Positions 2,059 through 49,403 of a stretch of 64,000 bases of DNA are shown here, piece by piece; positions within the stretch are counted from its first letter, which is position 1; every line of letters begins with the position of its first letter. Under the pieces are notes generated by a model. The model was given only the letters and a program-made list of their open reading frames with translations. It was not told where the DNA came from and did not search any database. The stretch spans positions 1 to 64,000 of the forward strand of contig JAFTWA010000042.1 of the NCBI GenBank assembly GCA_017465565.1. The letters run 5' to 3'. The position numbers and the translations under genes are program-made. This stretch comes from Tyzzerella sp. (GTDB lineage Bacteria; Bacillota; Clostridia; Lachnospirales; Lachnospiraceae).

Positions 2059-3159
2059 TTAACGTTCATACACAATATATCTATATTTTTGAAGCACTTC
2101 TACCGCCTTCTTAGAAGAGCCTTCATCATAGAACTCAATTCTCAGAACACCTTCTTCGAATTCTCGATTATGAATGATTCCAATATTTTTCAAGTTGATA
2201 TTATTGGCGGCTAGAATCGTTGCAATAGCTGCGATTCCACCGGCTTCATCCACGATATCGCAGTATACGGCAAACATTCTTTTGATAGGTCCAGAAGAAC
2301 CGCCAGGAATAGAATTGCGGTAATTCTTCGAGGTTTCAAACATACTGTAAATGTCATGCGCATCTTCATTCTGGACAGAAACCTTAGCTTCTTTCAAAAG
2401 TGCAATATAGTCATCTAATATATTTACAATATTATCTTTGTTTTTTAAACAGACATGCTGCCACATAGTAGGTGATGAAGAGGCGATTCTTGTGATATCC
2501 TTGAAACCGCCTGCAGCCAGATGCTTCATAAGCTCATCTTTTCCGTCTTTTTGTTTCACAAAATTAACAAGTGTCGCAGCTATAATATGTGGAAGGTGAC
2601 TAATTGCACCAGTAATATAATCATGCTCTTTGTAGTCAAGTATTACAGGCAATGCCTTTAATGATTCGATAAAAGCAGCGTATTCGTCTACGCGTTCTTT
2701 TGCAACTTTACGGGTAGGAGTGACAATGTAATAAGCATTTTCAATCAGTATGGCTTTAGAATTTACAAATCCGGATTTCTCAGAACCAGCCATTGGATGC
2801 CCGCCGATAAAATGTTCTTCCATACCCAATGCAATAATTTCTTCGTGGATAGAAGTCTTCACACTGCCCACGTCTGTGATAATACATTCTTGATGTAAGT
2901 GATTTTTCAGTTGTTTTAAGTATGCTGTATTATAAGAAACTGGCGCGCACAAGAAAATATAATTACAATTGTTGAAGTTATCATCGATAGTAGTGCAGGC
3001 TACATCAATTACAGATTCCTGTGTTGCAAGAGCGAGCGTTTCTTTATTTTTATCAAAGGCAACGATTTCGTAATCAGGATAATATTGGCGGATCGCTTTT
3101 GCGATAGAGCCGCCGATTAATCCAAGACCTACAAAACCAATTTTTTTTGCTGTATTCAT
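2059..3159 (-). CDS. tyrA: Prephenate dehydrogenase with ACT domain
   Basis: This enzyme converts prephenate to 4-hydroxyphenylpyruvate with NAD(P)+ in tyrosine synthesis. The N-terminus has a Rossmann fold with GLGLIGG. The family motif HPMAGSEKSG follows at about residue 120. A C-terminal ACT domain (about residues 295-366, with DEAGGIAAIA) suggests amino-acid feedback inhibition. I chose the ATG at 3159 (366 residues) over the ATG nine bases upstream. GAGG lies 9 nt before the chosen start but abuts the other one. The gene is alone on the minus strand, with its own promoter (3393-3421) and an unusual leader of about 225 nt. Confidence 0.93.
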   Translation of the reverse strand: MNTAKKIGFVGLGLIGGSIAKAIRQYYPDYEIVAFDKNKETLALATQESVIDVACTTIDDNFNNCNYIFLCAPVSYNTAYLKQLKNHLHQECIITDVGSVKTSIHEEIIALGMEEHFIGGHPMAGSEKSGFVNSKAILIENAYYIVTPTRKVAKERVDEYAAFIESLKALPVILDYKEHDYITGAISHLPHIIAATLVNFVKQKDGKDELMKHLAAGGFKDITRIASSSPTMWQHVCLKNKDNIVNILDDYIALLKEAKVSVQNEDAHDIYSMFETSKNYRNSIPGGSSGPIKRMFAVYCDIVDEAGGIAAIATILAANNINLKNIGIIHNREFEEGVLRIEFYDEGSSKKAVEVLQKYRYIVYER

Positions 3160-3206
3160 TCTAATCATCCTCGTTTACTGTTTTTCTTTGGATTTTAAGT
3201 GCATTT

Positions 3207-3371
3207 GGGTATATAGAGAAAAATATTCTTTCAATACCCATGTTTACGTCTAAATGAGGGTATTTTAGATAGAAAATTTTCTGTATGCCCAAACATACTG
3301 AAAAGTAGTAGTTAAAGTGAAAAAACATCCTGGTTATTGGGTATAGAATCTCTAAAATTTAGTAAATACCC
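3207..3371 (-). promoter_or_regulatory. tyrA leader with three repeated 33-nt nested hairpins
   Basis: Three modules of exactly 33 bp occur at 3207-3239, 3258-3290 and 3339-3371. Each is GGGTAT, 21 bases, then ATACCC (ATGCCC in the middle one) on the + strand. Each encloses an inner A/T palindrome of 11-13 bases that can form a 4-bp stem (for example AGAAAATTTTCT). All three lie between the predicted tyrA promoter and its start, so they would be transcribed as three two-tier hairpins. No U-tract follows, so they are not terminators. A protein-binding RNA motif, an unknown cis-regulatory RNA or DNA operators are all possible. Confidence 0.6.
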
Positions 3372-3392
3372 GAAAGCCTATTCCTGTTTCTG

Positions 3393-3421
3393 ATTTTAGT
3401 ACATAAAAAATCTAATGTCAA
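3393..3421 (-). promoter_or_regulatory. tyrA promoter
   Basis: On the minus strand TTGACA (3421-3416) is followed by a 17-bp spacer and TAAAAT (3398-3393). Transcription would start near 3386, giving a leader of roughly 225 nt. Confidence 0.75.
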
Positions 3422-3524
3422 CACTAACTTGCTTTAAAGTGTGAAAGTGTTCGAACTGAAGAGCAAAAGTGTTAGATAATTCTGAAAATTCCAAAGAAAA
3501 AATTGTGTAAATTAAATAAAACAG

Positions 3525-3553
3525 TTGAAAAATTCAAATAATTTTAGTACAAT
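3525..3553 (+). promoter_or_regulatory. Promoter of the EF-G-like gene
   Basis: TTGAAA (3525-3530), a 17-bp spacer and TACAAT (3548-3553) lie 39 bp before the start codon. Three copies of AAAGTGT (3436, 3444, 3466) lie upstream, with no known role. Confidence 0.7.
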
Positions 3554-3592
3554 AACAACATGTGATACTACAATAAGGAGGCAAAAGTAGTT

Positions 3593-5668
3593 ATGAAAGT
3601 TTATAGAACGGACGAAATTAGAAACGTAGTACTATTAGGACACGGAGGAAGCGGAAAGACTAGTTTAGTTGAAGCTATGTTATACGTATCAGGCGCAACT
3701 AATAGAATGGGAAAGATTGCTGACCACAACACAGTAAGTGATTTTGATAAAGAGGAGCAAAAACGTGAATTTTCAATTAGTACAAGTTTAATCCCAATTG
3801 AATGGGAAAAAGCAAAAATCAATGTATTAGATACACCAGGATACTTTGATTTTGTCGGTGAAGTGGAAGAGGCAGTAAGTGCGGCTGACGCAGCTGTAAT
3901 CGTTGTTTCTGGTAAAGCCGGCGTAGAAGTTGGTACAGAAAAAGCTTGGGAACTTTGTGACAAGTACAAACTTCCAAGAATGATTTATGTAACAGAAATG
4001 GATGTTGACGATGCAAGTTTCCGTCAGGTTGTAGAAGATTTGACAGCGAAATACGGAAAGAAAATCGCTCCACATTTCCAACCAATTCGTGAAAATGAAA
4101 AATTAGTTGGTTATGTTAACGTAATTAAAAATGCAGGCAGAAGATACACAGGCGTTGGACAAAGAGAAGAATGTGATATTCCTGATTATTGTTTACCAAA
4201 CTTACAAATCTGCCGCGAGGCTTTAATGGAAGCTGTTGCTGAAACAAGTGAAGATTTCATGGACAGATATTTTGCAGGAGAAGAATTCTCAGTAGAAGAA
4301 ATCCGTGCGGCAATGCGTACACAGGTTTCAGACGGAAGTATCGTACCAGTTGCTATGGGTTCTAATACACAGGCTCAAGGTGTTGCGAACTTATTATCAG
4401 ATATCGTTCGTTTCTTCCCAAGCCCAGATAAGAAAAATTGTGCAGGTATCAATCGTAAGACAAACGAAATTTTTGAAGCAAACTATGATTTTGCAAAATC
4501 TAAGAGTGCATATGTATTTAAGACAATGGTTGACCCATTCATCGGTAAATACTCATTTGTAAAAGTTTGCTCTGGTGTATTAAAAGGAGATGATACCCTT
4601 TACAATACTTCAAATGATACAGAAGAAAAGCTTGGCAAATTATATACAATGATAGGTAACAAACCAGTAGAAGTTCCAGAACTTCATGCAGGTGATATCG
4701 GTGCTATCGCTAAATTACAGGCAGTTCAAACTGGTGATACACTTTCAACAAAGAATACACAGGTTATGTATGGTAAGACAGAGTACTCTAAACCATATAC
4801 ATATATGAAATATGTTGTTAAGACAAAAGGCGATGAAGATAAAGTATCTCAGGCTCTTGCTAAGATGATGGCAGAAGACGTCACACTGAAAGCCGTTAAT
4901 GACAGTGAAAACCGTCAGGCATTAATCTATGGTATGGGCGACCAACACTTAGAAGTAGTTGTAAGCAAATTAGCTGCGCGCTACAAAGTTGATGTTTCAT
5001 TAGACACACCAAAGGTTGCCTTCCGTGAAACAATCCGTAAGAAATCAGACGTTGATACAAAATACAAGAAACAGTCTGGTGGACATGGACAATATGGTCA
5101 CGTTAAGATGACATTTGAACCTTCTGGTGATTTAGAAACACCTTACGTATTTGAACAAATCGTAGTTGGTGGAGCCGTTCCAAAGAACTACTTCCCAGCA
5201 GTAGAAAAAGGTTTACAGGAATCTGTGGTAAAAGGTCCTGTAGCTGGATATCCAGTAGTAGGTGTAAAAGCTGTATTATACGATGGATCTTACCATCCAG
5301 TAGACTCTTCTGAAATGGCATTCAAGACTGCAACAGTTCAGGCATTTAAGAAAGGTTTCATGGAAGCAAGTCCAGTATTATTAGAACCAATCGCAAATAT
5401 CAAAGTTACAGTACCTGATGAATATACAGGTGATGTAATGGGTGATTTGAATAAACGCCGTGGCCGTGTGCTCGGTATGACACCAATCACAGGTGGAAAA
5501 CAGATTATCGAAGCTGATATCCCTATGACAGGTGTATTTGGATACTGTACAGTACTTCGCTCAATGACAGGCGGACGTGGAACATATGAATATGAATTTG
5601 TTCGTTATGAACAAGCACCATCAGATGTTCAAGAAAAAGAAATTGCTGCAAGAGCAAATGAAGAATAA
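3593..5668 (+). CDS. Elongation factor G-like GTPase (EF-G paralogue)
   Basis: This 691-residue translational GTPase is collinear with EF-G. G1 is GHGGSGKT (residues 16-23), G3 is DTPG (80-83), and domains II-V follow, including the GGHGQYGHV and GGRGTYEYEF regions. G1 has GHGGSGKT instead of the GHVDAGKT of housekeeping EF-G, and G3 reads DTPGYFDF instead of DTPGHVDF, as in the EF-G2/FusA2-like paralogues. The G4 motif is TEMD (134-137) instead of NKxD, which is unusual because Asn and Lys contact guanine. The gene has its own promoter, a strong AAGGAGG site and a terminator, so it is monocistronic and outside the str operon. Its role is unclear; paralogues have been linked to ribosome recycling or stress. 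Confidence 0.85.
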   Translation: MKVYRTDEIRNVVLLGHGGSGKTSLVEAMLYVSGATNRMGKIADHNTVSDFDKEEQKREFSISTSLIPIEWEKAKINVLDTPGYFDFVGEVEEAVSAADAAVIVVSGKAGVEVGTEKAWELCDKYKLPRMIYVTEMDVDDASFRQVVEDLTAKYGKKIAPHFQPIRENEKLVGYVNVIKNAGRRYTGVGQREECDIPDYCLPNLQICREALMEAVAETSEDFMDRYFAGEEFSVEEIRAAMRTQVSDGSIVPVAMGSNTQAQGVANLLSDIVRFFPSPDKKNCAGINRKTNEIFEANYDFAKSKSAYVFKTMVDPFIGKYSFVKVCSGVLKGDDTLYNTSNDTEEKLGKLYTMIGNKPVEVPELHAGDIGAIAKLQAVQTGDTLSTKNTQVMYGKTEYSKPYTYMKYVVKTKGDEDKVSQALAKMMAEDVTLKAVNDSENRQALIYGMGDQHLEVVVSKLAARYKVDVSLDTPKVAFRETIRKKSDVDTKYKKQSGGHGQYGHVKMTFEPSGDLETPYVFEQIVVGGAVPKNYFPAVEKGLQESVVKGPVAGYPVVGVKAVLYDGSYHPVDSSEMAFKTATVQAFKKGFMEASPVLLEPIANIKVTVPDEYTGDVMGDLNKRRGRVLGMTPITGGKQIIEADIPMTGVFGYCTVLRSMTGGRGTYEYEFVRYEQAPSDVQEKEIAARANEE

Positions 5669-45524: not shown

Positions 45525-47387
45525 ATGGAAAATATTTTTTTGACAGTTCTAAATTTGAGCATATCAGCAAGCTGGTTAATTGTTATAGTAATTTTATGTC
45601 GGCTAATATTCAAAAAAGCACCGAAAAGTATGCGATATATTTTATGGCTTTTGGTTGGAATAAGATTAATATGCTCCATCTCTTTAGAAAGTCCATGGAG
45701 CATGATTCCAAGCGCGGAAACAGTTCCAGTGGAGATTGTGGATGCGAAGATACCAAAGATAGAAACTGGGATTGATTCTGTGAATCAAGTTGTGAATCCT
45801 ATTTTGGCAGAAACAATGGCACAGAATCCAGTGGAGAGTGTCAATCCGATGCAGGTAGTGATAAGCGTTGCTTCAGTAATCTGGATAATAGGTGTGGCCG
45901 CAATGCTTGCATATATCTTCGTCAGTTATCTGCGAGTGAAGAGGAAAACACGTGCCTCTATTAAATTGAAAGACAAAATTTGGGTATGTGATGATATTAC
46001 CTCACCGTTTATTTTGGGATTTGTACGGCCACGAATATTTATTCCATCAAATACGAACGAGGAAGAAATCCCTTATATTGTTGCACACGAAGAGGAGCAT
46101 CTGAGATATCGTGATAACTGGTGGAAACCACTTGGATTCCTAATCTTAGCAGTTCATTGGTTTAATCCTCTTGTTTGGATTTCCTATGTATTAATGTGCA
46201 GAGATATGGAGCTTGCCTGTGACGAACGCGTTATCTGGAGAATGAATTCGGACGAGAAGAAAAAATATTCAGAAATATTATTATCTTTTGGTGAATTGAA
46301 ACGTGTTGTGACGACCTGTCCAGTGGCTTTTGGAGAAGTAGGAATTAAGCAGAGAATTAAGTCTATTGTAAATTTCAAAAGACCATCTGGGTGGATAATT
46401 GCGGCTGCTTTATTGATTTCTGTAGTTATTGGCGTGTGCTTTATGACAAATCCGGATGGAATCCTTACTGACAATCTGGCTAAAACGAGTTCTATAATTT
46501 CTAACAATAATAGCAATTCACGTACTGCTGAAGATGAGGATTTTATTTATTATTTTTATATGCCGACTGTGAAAAAAATGTCTAAAGCAGATAACTCGGT
46601 TGAGGATATCTATACATTTGAGGATATTTATACAATTGTCAATGCATTTGAATGTTTTGGGGACAGGCTGTATTTTCTCACATATAAAGGTGAGTTGATT
46701 TCCATGGACAAAAACGGGGAGAATCTTTTAAAAGCCAGATTTTCATTGGATGACTCGGAAGAACTTTTGGAGTATGATTCACCTACTCCTACACCTTATG
46801 TTTTTGGAGATAATCTTTATTTCATACCAAGCGATTTGAGCGCTGCCTATCGTGTGGACCCTGATACTCTTGCCCTTAAGCTTGCGGATCCTGGAATAGC
46901 ATATCAACATATAACATCTGATAAAACGATTTTTATAAAAAAAGCAGAGGATGAAGTAGGAAGACTTTACGTAAAACCTGACAATGAAGATATGACTTTA
47001 TTTTCCGCCGAAGATGAAAGTGTAATATTGAATCGTGTAAATTTTACAGATTATTATGTTTTTTATATGGCATTTAAATCGAATGATTTTAGTACTCTTT
47101 ATCTGTATCGGGTTGACCTGGATGGAGAAAATAAGGTTTCAATAAAAGAAGTTGGTGTGGCTAACAATACTGGTAATATTAAATATGATAATGAGTATAT
47201 TTATTTAGTTGCTAGTGAAGATGAATACCTAAAAATACATAAGGAAACTTTAGAGGAAACAAATATAGCATCTATGGTAGATGATGTGAATAAAGTTCAT
47301 AATCATGAAATTTCCAATGAAAAATTCTTTCATGCATTTTTTGAGTACTATATTGATGGTGAAACCGGTGAAAAGGTGGAATTATAA
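45525..47387 (+). CDS. M56 (BlaR1-like) membrane metallopeptidase with propeller-like sensor
   Basis: The 620-residue protein has N-terminal helices (about 8-50 and 111-135) and the zinc motif HEEEH at 188-192. A further Glu ligand region ELACDE follows, and a final helix lies at about 288-305. In BlaR1/MecR1 the extracellular C-terminus is a penicillin-binding domain with SxxK. Here it is a 300-residue domain with repeated YFYMPTV/RLYFLTY/NLYFIPS strands, like DUF5050/beta-propeller sensors, and I see no SxxK-SxN-KTG set. It probably senses an envelope signal other than a beta-lactam and inactivates the adjacent repressor. Confidence 0.85.
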   Translation: MENIFLTVLNLSISASWLIVIVILCRLIFKKAPKSMRYILWLLVGIRLICSISLESPWSMIPSAETVPVEIVDAKIPKIETGIDSVNQVVNPILAETMAQNPVESVNPMQVVISVASVIWIIGVAAMLAYIFVSYLRVKRKTRASIKLKDKIWVCDDITSPFILGFVRPRIFIPSNTNEEEIPYIVAHEEEHLRYRDNWWKPLGFLILAVHWFNPLVWISYVLMCRDMELACDERVIWRMNSDEKKKYSEILLSFGELKRVVTTCPVAFGEVGIKQRIKSIVNFKRPSGWIIAAALLISVVIGVCFMTNPDGILTDNLAKTSSIISNNNSNSRTAEDEDFIYYFYMPTVKKMSKADNSVEDIYTFEDIYTIVNAFECFGDRLYFLTYKGELISMDKNGENLLKARFSLDDSEELLEYDSPTPTPYVFGDNLYFIPSDLSAAYRVDPDTLALKLADPGIAYQHITSDKTIFIKKAEDEVGRLYVKPDNEDMTLFSAEDESVILNRVNFTDYYVFYMAFKSNDFSTLYLYRVDLDGENKVSIKEVGVANNTGNIKYDNEYIYLVASEDEYLKIHKETLEETNIASMVDDVNKVHNHEISNEKFFHAFFEYYIDGETGEKVEL

Positions 47388-47414
47388 GATTTAGGATGCA
47401 GAGGTGGTGATTGG

Positions 47415-47550
47415 ATGAAGAAACAAATATACCACTGGAGACGAATTGGAAAGTGGGCAATATGAAGTGGAAATGAAAGATGAATATTTTGAAATTTATC
47501 TGGAAGTGCCTGAGCGAGAGTATGACAGCCGAGGTTACCTCATGTTCTAA
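47415..47550 (+). pseudogene. Short frameshifted gene remnant
   Basis: GAGGTGG precedes an ATG at 47415 whose frame stops after 16 codons. The +1 frame from there reads about 40 plausible residues to a TAA at 47548 (TTGDELESGQYEVEMK, then EIYLEVPEREYDSRGY). This looks like the end of a decayed or frameshifted small gene after blaR1. I do not recognise the family. Confidence 0.4.
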
Positions 47551-47570
47551 ACAGTTAAGAGAAATTTAAG

Positions 47571-47599
47571 TTGACATAATTTTTCGGAATTCATATAAT
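47571..47599 (+). promoter_or_regulatory. Consensus promoter of the structured RNA
   Basis: TTGACA (47571-47576), a 17-bp spacer and TATAAT (47594-47599) are a perfect sigma-A promoter. The start would be near 47606. Confidence 0.88.
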
Positions 47600-47605
47600 A
47601 ATAGT

Positions 47606-47774
47606 AGCAACAGGCAACATGAGTGTCTGTTTAAGCGTAGAAACAAGAGGGTGTACCGGAATGCATTGTCTTGTGGAGCTTTCAGGAGGGGTTGTGCAGC
47701 GATACCTCAAACCGGTGTAGGTAGCGATACCGAAAGAAAATGCAATAGTAACCCTGTCGCGAGACAGGGTTTTT
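47606..47774 (+). ncRNA. Structured RNA of about 170 nt ending in an intrinsic terminator
   Basis: There is no open frame, but many helices are possible. They are a bulged hairpin 47609-47613/47627-47631 with an inner ACA/TGT, ACAAGA/TCTTGT (47643-47648/47669-47674), GAGG/CCTC (47686-47689/47705-47708) and a GGTA-GCGA-TACC tetraloop hairpin (47720-47731). Two longer pairings, ACCGG with CCGGT (47655-47659/47712-47716) and TGCATT with AATGCA (47662-47667/47739-47744), cross and imply a pseudoknot. A perfect terminator (8-bp stem 47751-47758/47763-47770, GCGA loop, T-tract) ends it 18 bp before the PBECR4 start. It could be a stand-alone RNA (the raiA class is one I would test), a riboswitch-like leader or an RNA antitoxin. 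Confidence 0.7.
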
Positions 47775-47792
47775 CTATCGGAAAGGAGATAA

Positions 47793-48371
47793 ATGGATTT
47801 ACTAAAGAAATGTGCTTTAGGGTTTAATATTCTATTAAAGCACAAATATCATTTTATATTGGGAAGAAAAGGAAAAATAAAAGAATTTACTATTTCTTTT
47901 GATAAGTCAGATTTTCATCATCTAGCAGGCTTACATAAATTAAAGGACAATGCAAAAGTACAATATGGAAAGCGTGCAGATATCTTTGATTCAATTCTAA
48001 CTGGAGAAATCACTCTGGAGCAAATTCAAAAAAGCGAATTTTATAATAAAATGGAAAATCGAATAGAACCATTATGCTGTTTGGAAGAAATGTTGGATAA
48101 TAATAATTTAATTTTTCACTATAATGAAAAGGTTAATCAATATTCTGTTATTAAAGCAGATTATTTACTGGAAAATCGATATTTTGACGAAAGTGTTTTT
48201 CTGTTTTTAGGAGCTAGGGGTGAAGATGGAAAAGAACAGATGTGTAGAACTTTCTTTCCTAAACAAGAAATTGATTATACTCAGGGACAAGCGAAATATA
48301 CGCTTCTGAAAAAAGAAAAAATTAATTGTGAAACCCATGAAGTCGAAGTTCAATATAATCGTTTAATGTAG
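47793..48371 (+). CDS. PBECR4-like domain protein (putative RNase-fold)
   Basis: The 192-residue protein matches, by its FTISFDKSDFHHLAGLHKL segment (about residues 32-50), my recollection of the PBECR4 domain. That family was named for a fold shared with Barnase/EndoU/ColicinE5/RelE nucleases in phage and mobile contexts. Further family-like segments are KMENRIEPL and a late SVFLFLGAR then CRTFFP. Conserved His residues (HHLAGLH) could be catalytic. AAAGGAG follows directly on the upstream RNA terminator, so expression depends on read-through or another signal. The gene stands alone and is convergent with apbE. Confidence 0.65.
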   Translation: MDLLKKCALGFNILLKHKYHFILGRKGKIKEFTISFDKSDFHHLAGLHKLKDNAKVQYGKRADIFDSILTGEITLEQIQKSEFYNKMENRIEPLCCLEEMLDNNNLIFHYNEKVNQYSVIKADYLLENRYFDESVFLFLGARGEDGKEQMCRTFFPKQEIDYTQGQAKYTLLKKEKINCETHEVEVQYNRLM

Positions 48372-48405
48372 TGTTTATCCCAAATGTTAAAATATAAGGG
48401 GCAAC

Positions 48406-48422
48406 AGATATTACCAATATCT
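48406..48422. terminator. Weak bidirectional hairpin
   Basis: A 7-bp stem (AGATATT/AATATCT, 48406-48412 and 48416-48422) with GGG/CCC outside it lies between the convergent PBECR4 gene and apbE. The T-rich tail is short. Confidence 0.45.
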
Positions 48423-48437
48423 ATTACCCTGCTTTTG

Positions 48438-49403
48438 TTACATTCTTGTATCTATGATTTTATAATCATCTGTTATAAAAATAGCCTCAATACCATTAAG
48501 TGTTTCGATAAGCTTTTTCCCTTCTTCAAGTCCTAATGCAAAGCAAGACGTACTAAGTGCATCTCCGTCCACAGATTTCTCAGAAAGTATCGTAACACCT
48601 AATAACCCATTATCACAAGGATAACCAGTCTCTGTGTTTAAAATATGATGATATAGTTCCCCGTCTACTTCAAAGTATCGTTCATAACAGCCAGATGTTA
48701 CCACAGATAAATCAGAAATAGATTCTGTAGCAATCATCTTAGATTCTTCAAATGGTTTCTTGATTCCAATCGTAAAATCGTTTCCATTAGGTTTCGAACC
48801 CACTGCTAAAATATTTCCTCCTAAATCGATCAAAGCACTTTCTACACCTTCGATGAGAAGGTATTCTTTTAATCTATCTGCCATATACCCCTTTGCAATT
48901 CCACCGAGATCGATTGCCATCTCTGGGTCTGTCAATGTGACTGTATTTCCATCAATTATGATATTTTTATAAGAAACATGTGATAGTGCATCTTGAATAT
49001 CTGCGTCTTCAGGAACAACTCCAGGATTGTTTTTAAAATCCCAAAGTTCACTTAGAGGGGCAATAGTAATATCAAAAGCACCATTTGTTAACTCGCCATA
49101 ATAGATTCCCTGCTCTAATAATTCAATTGTTGTGTCTGAAACAGTAACTGGTGTTCCTTTAGAATTATTAATCTGAGAAATCTCACTGGTTTCTATGGTG
49201 CGGCTAATGGTATTTTCAAATTCCTCACAAAATGCGAAACACTGGTCTAAAAGAGTTTCATCTTGAGAATCATAAATCTTAATAGAAATTACTGTGTCGA
49301 AATAAATTGCTGTACGTGATATGGGTTCTGACGTTTGGAAAGAGCAGCCACAGAGCAGCATACTGCATAAGATAAAAGCGTATAATACGCGAAGTTTTTT
49401 CAT
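48438..49403 (-). CDS. apbE: FAD:protein FMN transferase (ApbE), lipoprotein
   Basis: This membrane-attached enzyme transfers FMN from FAD to Thr in (S/T)GAT motifs of extracytoplasmic proteins. The 321-residue protein has a lipobox LLCGC (Cys near residue 20). ApbE segments are FDTVISIKIYD, GAFDITIAPLSELWDF, DLGGIAKGYMAD and the FAD-binding SALIDLGGNILAVGSKPNG. Substrates in this window are RnfG (motif SGATIT) and probably RnfD. AGGAGG precedes the ATG. It is divergent from the NusG-II/Gx pair, which often goes with such flavin systems. Confidence 0.93.
   Translation of the reverse strand: MKKLRVLYAFILCSMLLCGCSFQTSEPISRTAIYFDTVISIKIYDSQDETLLDQCFAFCEEFENTISRTIETSEISQINNSKGTPVTVSDTTIELLEQGIYYGELTNGAFDITIAPLSELWDFKNNPGVVPEDADIQDALSHVSYKNIIIDGNTVTLTDPEMAIDLGGIAKGYMADRLKEYLLIEGVESALIDLGGNILAVGSKPNGNDFTIGIKKPFEESKMIATESISDLSVVTSGCYERYFEVDGELYHHILNTETGYPCDNGLLGVTILSEKSVDGDALSTSCFALGLEEGKKLIETLNGIEAIFITDDYKIIDTRM

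Follow-up and report, generated by a model that had tools for sequence, protein, structure and literature searches.

The window, that is, the whole 64-kb stretch of DNA that was analysed, holds at 47571..48371 a unit in which a promoter, a structured RNA, a terminator and a protein gene follow one another on the plus strand (Table 1). The original prediction had described this order as that of a type III toxin-antitoxin locus, and its elements were recovered: the promoter is perfect, the RNA of approximately 170 nt is structured (47606-47776 folds at -56.7 kcal/mol, z -3.58 versus shuffles), the terminator is strong, with a stem at 47750-47771 followed by a T-tract, and the gene starts 18 nt past the T-tract. 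The pairing of RNA and gene also holds in relatives. In 1.1 kb, 2 terminator-like sites were found versus 0.3 expected, and GGAAAGGAG is located 4 nt upstream of the ATG of the window gene. A stretch resembling the 5' hairpin of the window (AGGCAAC...GTGTCT, by eye) was seen at another locus, L151. Elsewhere in the window, a BlaR1-type protein is encoded at 45525-47387, in which only the M56 peptidase part (7-281 of 620) was above the Pfam cut-off; as its C-terminal half matches no known sensor, its signal may differ.

Table 1. Features of the drum-PBECR4 unit and the basis of each assignment
Feature	Position	Strand	Basis
Sigma-70 promoter	TTGACA 47571-47576, 17-nt spacer, TATAAT 47594-47599	+	12/12 consensus matches
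Predicted transcript of ~170 nt, candidate RNA antitoxin	47606..47774	+	Both ends predicted from the promoter and terminator sites
5' hairpin outside the Rfam model	47609..47631	+	Predicted fold
drum RNA (RF02958), full model	47633..47748	+	93.8 bits, model positions 1-112 of 112
Pseudoknot, ACCGG 47655-47659 with CCGGT 47712-47716	47655..47716	+	Covariation in 30 drum sequences
Intrinsic terminator separating RNA from gene	47750..47774	+	9-pair stem and T-tract
PBECR4 gene, 192 aa, candidate toxin, predicted BECR-type RNase	47793..48371	+	PF18813 match

The RNA was identified as a full-length member of drum, a family that Rfam types as Gene; sRNA, with a score far above the gathering score of 43 (E 1.2e-16). 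As drum was the sole Rfam match at gathering within the 64-kb window, raiA, which had been put forward as an alternative, was set aside; the four non-drum matches at 47400-48500 (E <= 10) were below the cut-off, and none was raiA. The RNA had also been thought to be a new type lacking tandem repeats. The lack of repeats was borne out, but the class itself was already known. A match to an Rfam class occurring without PBECR4 had been named as evidence against the pairing; a known class was indeed matched, but drum occurs with PBECR4.

Drum is a single fold of approximately 115 nt with a pseudoknot. The pseudoknot had been called probable, and the alignment of 30 drum sequences upheld it: two-sided changes were observed at 5/5 pairs between the ACCGG loop and CCGGT, and 96.7% of the cells at these pairs were paired. 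For the fold as a whole, 93.0% of cells were paired, and the covariation score was 0.737 versus 0.322 for shuffled alignments (0/500) and at most 0.183 when slid; in these comparisons, as in those for class B below, the slid controls allow for relatedness, while the shuffles do not. The k-turn of drum folds in magnesium (PMC8191799, available in part). Neither a function of drum nor a link to PBECR4 was found in the parts available of PMC8191799, PMC7779021, PMC7657543, PMC5512222, PMC9403866, PMC11980606, PMC5086642 and PMC12373285. The 2017 description of drum was not among the literature searched, and an earlier mention of the downstream gene is therefore possible.

In the case of the protein, PBECR4-like segments had been proposed. 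The homology was correct, but its extent had been understated, as the match spans the complete domain: PF18813 covers residues 4-190 and profile positions 2-187 of 188 (E 3.4e-42, 145.4 bits, cut-off 27), and no other Pfam family was above the cut-off in the window protein. H43 and G46 are invariant across 26 diverse PBECR4 members, some just 12% identical to the window protein, and T170 is invariant in 35 closer members. In the AlphaFold2 model (35 sequences; mean pLDDT 92.2, pTM 0.85), H43 lies within helix 38-44 and T170 in strand 167-178. PBECR domains have been predicted to be metal-independent RNases, characterised by a histidine placed in a helix and by a Ser/Thr towards the C-terminus, and solo versions occur in phages (Iyer et al. 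2017, PMC5512222); the portion of that paper available to us names no RNA partner for the PBECR domains of polyvalent proteins, and the string PBECR4 is absent from it. A sequence search for solved structural relatives gave a ribosomal protein as its best match (E 0.31), which is not credible; the RNase fold is therefore predicted from membership of the Pfam family, and the putative RNase function from that family together with Iyer et al. No PADLOC model matched the drum-PBECR4 system, and a known defence family was accordingly rejected. PBECR4 was also seen inside two longer proteins, L079 (516 aa) and L093 (391 aa), the remainder of which had no Pfam match at E <= 0.1; an RNA and a terminator-like site lie upstream of both genes.

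Two partly overlapping draws, 200 genomes from the same family and 295 from the same order, were searched for drum and PF18813. Drum was present in 17/200 and 12/295 genomes, and PBECR4 in 39/200 and 32/295 genomes, respectively. The cut-off was passed at 30 distinct drum loci. In 25 of them a PF18813 match follows immediately in the same orientation, 2 have a PBECR4 remnant (a C-terminal piece at G111:C58 and an N-terminal piece at G280:C12), and 3 have no PBECR4 near (G130:C38, G118:C52 and G463:C1). The sub-threshold drums of G260 and G406 were excluded from the 30; the former is followed by a PBECR4 piece, the latter by none. In the window's own genome, PBECR4 follows both drums. The second of these pairs (L006, G000:C37) comprises a drum of 89 bits at 45804-45914 and a PBECR4 match from 45986, the gene of which has one in-frame TAA. 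In 14 control genomes no drum was found, and PBECR4 was found once, in Lactococcus lactis. A phylum-wide draw gave PBECR4 in 3/299 genomes, 2 of them already known; the system thus looks common in Lachnospiraceae and related groups and rare in the rest of the phylum.

The association was likewise examined from the side of the protein. A scan of named genomes with drum-branch protein queries gave 124 relatives, of which 80 were kept and 73 examined at Rfam's own thresholds. Drum was present at 71 of the 73 loci, a proportion that, the queries being drum-branch proteins, speaks for that branch only. The co-occurrence in related genomes that the original prediction had asked about was therefore observed from both sides. 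One of the two misses, L148, is a record that starts at the gene. At the other, L173 ([Clostridium] citroniae, 2929-3570), the N-terminus of the PBECR4 frame does not resemble those of the family, and the 6.5 kb of the locus contain no drum; as the frame is open over 213 aa, a decayed gene was rejected, and L173 is a counter-example to the RNA-gene pairing. Judging by record titles, most of the named loci are from Lachnospiraceae and some are from other Clostridia; five are from Treponema, all of them in MAGs, for which contamination is possible. Plasmid relatives were found in 21 matching records, and in the three that were fetched (two Enterococcus and one Streptococcus suis) drum was present each time, at 51.8, 50 and 46.4 bits, all above the cut-off. 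No phage relative of the window protein was found in 50,697 phage records, and none was confirmed in IMG/VR.

The layout of the unit was also conserved. In a selection of 52 named and plasmid loci with drum, the drum end and the gene start were a median of 52 nt apart, with 41 of the 52 distances at 35-70 nt. Promoters and terminators were surveyed at 49 of the 74 drum-bearing loci (46 named, 3 plasmid). A terminator-like site lay between drum and gene in 48/49 relatives versus 27/228 control stretches, and the best promoter site before drum matched at least 10 of 12 positions in 47/49 relatives versus 3/196 control windows, being perfect in 33 of those 47. At L121, an insert with ORFs resembling an IS transposase separates drum from the gene. 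At L185 (2422-2587, minus strand), a TwoAYGGAY RNA (RF01731) lies shortly upstream of the drum-PBECR4 unit on the opposite strand.

Pooling both draws gave 84 PBECR4 loci, after pieces of one gene were merged (G029, G117) and the sub-cut-off G374:C110 was omitted. When the upstream DNA of these loci was read, PBECR4 genes lacking drum mostly had other RNAs at the same position. Classified by motif, the loci comprised 26 drum (one of them sub-cut-off), 29 class B (including G292, filed by its protein only because the contig ends there), 6 class C, 5 class D (one with its RNA gone) and 2 class E, with 16 loci left without a class; classes D and E were defined by inspection. Motif and model assignment was used instead of BLAST clustering of the upstream regions, which mixed classes A and B, probably via the shared promoter. 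A terminator-like site was located within 100 nt before the gene in 65/82 PBECR4 loci, versus 19/93 other ORFs, 80/496 random positions and 11/82 shuffled upstream regions. At 17 loci including classes B, C and D, Rfam (E up to 1) returned tRNA matches and one sub-cut-off sRNA match, and nothing else.

Class B consists of two tandem units, each with a GUUG-loop-CAAC hairpin and an A-rich linker, and the unit number ranges from one (G031) to three (G111:C7). The loops of the units pair with segments elsewhere in the RNA, and the loop of a first hairpin pairs with the 3' end. In an alignment of 22 of the 29 loci filed as B (A4), three pseudoknots covaried, 94.8% of cells were paired, and the covariation score was 0.408 versus 0.173 for shuffles (0/500) and at most 0.106 when slid. 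Class C consists of two tandem H-type pseudoknots with 7-bp loop pairings, of which 6 or 7 of 7 pairs are kept in each of 6 sequences despite letter changes. At L077 (1160-1355), a further tandem RNA type was noticed by eye before PBECR4, with two hairpins whose loops, TTGC and CTGC, have possible pairing partners (GCAA and GCAG) that follow A-rich linkers.

The class B model R1 found 20 places in 16 of the 200 genomes. Eleven of the places adjoin PF18813 matches, although 9 of these had been used in building the model; two lie beside PBECR4 remnants, and seven have no gene. Three of the seven are partial RNAs, and the four full-length class B RNAs with no PBECR4 near are at G007:C1, G096:72016, G145 and G072:475874. 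R1 also matched beside the PBECR4 genes of two phages, Erysipelothrix phage phi1605 (89.6 bits) and Streptococcus phage Javan100 (83.3 bits), of a Lactiplantibacillus plasmid (64.1 bits) and of two IMG/VR contigs (approximately 130 bits), all of them absent from the model. Class B had 9 matching plasmid and phage records, of which four were fetched. Carriers of PBECR4-RNA units include plasmids, two phages and two IMG/VR contigs. A further IMG/VR scan with one class B protein gave no relatives, although class B relatives do occur there. On one of the IMG/VR contigs (L222, 1-9354), class B RNA and PBECR4 lie amid large ORFs that resemble serine recombinases by eye, and the contig may therefore represent an integrative element and not a phage. 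The window's genome also has a class B RNA before a PBECR4 gene (L007, G000:C54, 20099-20240, minus strand), whose frame looks broken and which is close to a tRNA gene cluster.

RNA and protein have been inherited jointly. On a tree of 56 intact PBECR4 proteins from the 84 loci, the five RNA classes required 4 changes, the least possible, when 7 unassigned rows were left out; with these rows as a sixth group, 8 changes were required versus a shuffled mean of 28.9. Distances between drums and between their PBECR4 proteins were correlated (Mantel r 0.81, p 0.0001; 35-36 selected named and plasmid loci with drum), which shows that the two travel together, as any two joined genes may, and does not speak to function.

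Among the 84 loci, an intact PBECR4 gene, defined by a start codon, a full match and a length rule, was present at 57, and an RNA was near in 57/57. The gene was broken in all 6 loci without RNA (e.g., G117 and G038), while 14 loci kept the RNA beside a broken gene; of the remainder, 4 had an RNA and a gene without a start by the rule, and 3 were cut by contig ends. RNA presence was associated with gene intactness (Fisher p 1.6e-4), with the RNA at 9 unassigned loci judged by eye and not blind to the state of the gene (G439 also by model). L173, which is outside the 84-locus set, runs against this pattern, having an open gene and no drum. The pattern of loss in the 84 loci would suit a toxin and its antidote.

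Several loci contain the RNA as a unit of its own. At L151 (2700-4330), two further drums with near-identical promoters, each with its own promoter and terminator, lie behind the gene with no PBECR4 gene of their own, and at L164 (2450-3000) two tandem promoter-drum-terminator units precede one gene. On the Ligilactobacillus salivarius plasmid L119, a class B RNA of 52.4 bits lies beyond the gene on the opposite strand, convergent to it (3440-3800, minus strand); by eye, its units look like self-contained H-type pseudoknots (CAGG/CCTG and CAAG/CTTG). At L075, a class B RNA of 97.3 bits is located downstream of the gene on the same strand. A leader acting in cis alone does not fit these four arrangements.

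On the whole, the unit is probably a toxin-antitoxin locus of type III-like design, in which the toxin is not of the ToxN type and drum is one antitoxin. Most transcripts would end at the terminator and yield the drum RNA of approximately 170 nt in excess, and the folded, pseudoknotted RNA would bind PBECR4 directly and block it. If drum fell through element loss or phage takeover, free PBECR4 would act as a toxin, cutting cellular RNA and stopping growth, and the locus may thereby serve defence or maintenance. Drum would be one of several RNA classes serving different solo PBECR4 branches.

A different role for the same RNA was considered, namely, that of a cis-regulatory leader in which a ligand- or stress-sensing attenuator chooses between the terminator and read-through into PBECR4. 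The position of drum before the gene, with a terminator-like site between them in 48/49 loci, is what such a leader would have, and a conserved pseudoknotted RNA with a k-turn would suit a riboswitch (PMC8191799, available in part). However, although a 5'-leader position fits most loci, it does not fit L119, L075 and L151, where the RNA is on the opposite strand, downstream or solo, and L164 has two full units. Several distinct RNA classes occupy the same place on one gene family, and the RNAs outlive the gene, whereas genes without RNA are mostly broken. In the predicted fold, moreover, the terminator stem is separate from the drum core. We therefore consider an attenuator unlikely.

The RNA could instead be a working part of the effector, serving as a guide, scaffold or sensor that activates PBECR4 in a ribonucleoprotein defence system. 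Proximity and joint inheritance would fit this equally, and the AbiF protein, a precedent, has structural links to Cas13 (PMC12373285, available in part). No spacer-like segment was seen, however, the loops changing together with partners inside the RNA, and activation would explain neither the mostly broken genes without RNA nor the persisting RNAs without a gene; this reading appears quite improbable. That an orphan sRNA merely precedes an unrelated gene by chance could draw on the three drums with no PBECR4 near, but 25/30 loci plus 2 remnants, 71/73 named loci and a near-constant spacing oppose it, and the pairing spans mostly Lachnospiraceae, other Clostridia, Treponema MAGs, and Enterococcus and Streptococcus plasmids. 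The probability of a chance neighbourhood is negligible.

The preferred reading, a toxin neutralised by RNA, has close parallels. ToxIN, CptIN and TenpIN (AbiQ) have one promoter, a pseudoknotted RNA, a Rho-independent terminator and an RNase gene (PMC5086642, available in part). The drum-PBECR4 unit has the same arrangement, and promoter, RNA, Rho-independent terminator and gene were found, as sequence sites, in the window and its relatives. The tandem pseudoknot repeats of type III antitoxins are shared by PBECR4 classes B and C and not by drum, while class B differs in that it also pairs loops between units. The protein is not ToxN, CptN or TenpN, PF18813 being the sole Pfam family above the cut-off. 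As both a ToxN-type toxin and repeats in drum are missing, the unit was not filed as ToxIN, although it most likely works like ToxIN. A second parallel is AbiF/RCd22 of Clostridioides difficile, in which the abiF RNA (RF03085) binds a toxic protein directly and thereby neutralises it, both in cis and in trans (PMC12373285, of which part was available). According to that text, an Rfam RNA with promoter and terminator lies upstream of the protein gene, as in the drum-PBECR4 unit; in contrast, the protein is Abi_2 and HEPN-like, and its RNA holds two motifs of 33 and 35 nt. Neutralisation was established experimentally for AbiF/RCd22; for drum-PBECR4 it is predicted from sequence.

Both families were known beforehand, and what is new is the suggestion that drum and PBECR4 belong together. 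Drum, for which the literature searched gives no function, thereby gains a partner and a testable role, and other orphan RNAs of its kind may be antitoxins too. Going further, we lean towards the view that all solo PBECR4 proteins together make up a superfamily independent of ToxN, whose members are RNase toxins neutralised by RNA. Its hosts would be Clostridia, Bacilli and perhaps Treponema, with loci on chromosomes, plasmids and phages, and its antitoxin RNAs would include drum, classes B and C with their tandem pseudoknots, and classes D and E. Common to these RNAs would be the pairing of a hairpin loop over an A-rich linker, and they would have diverged along with their toxins. RNA-neutralised toxins would then extend beyond ToxN and AbiF to a further RNase family, served by several kinds of RNA; if true, drum would receive its function and several RNA families without an Rfam match would be added. 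On the E. faecalis plasmid pKUB3006-2 (L115, 2841-4992), an AbiH abortive-infection gene follows drum-PBECR4 and a PemK/MazF toxin lies further on, a gene set that is a possible defence or maintenance cluster.
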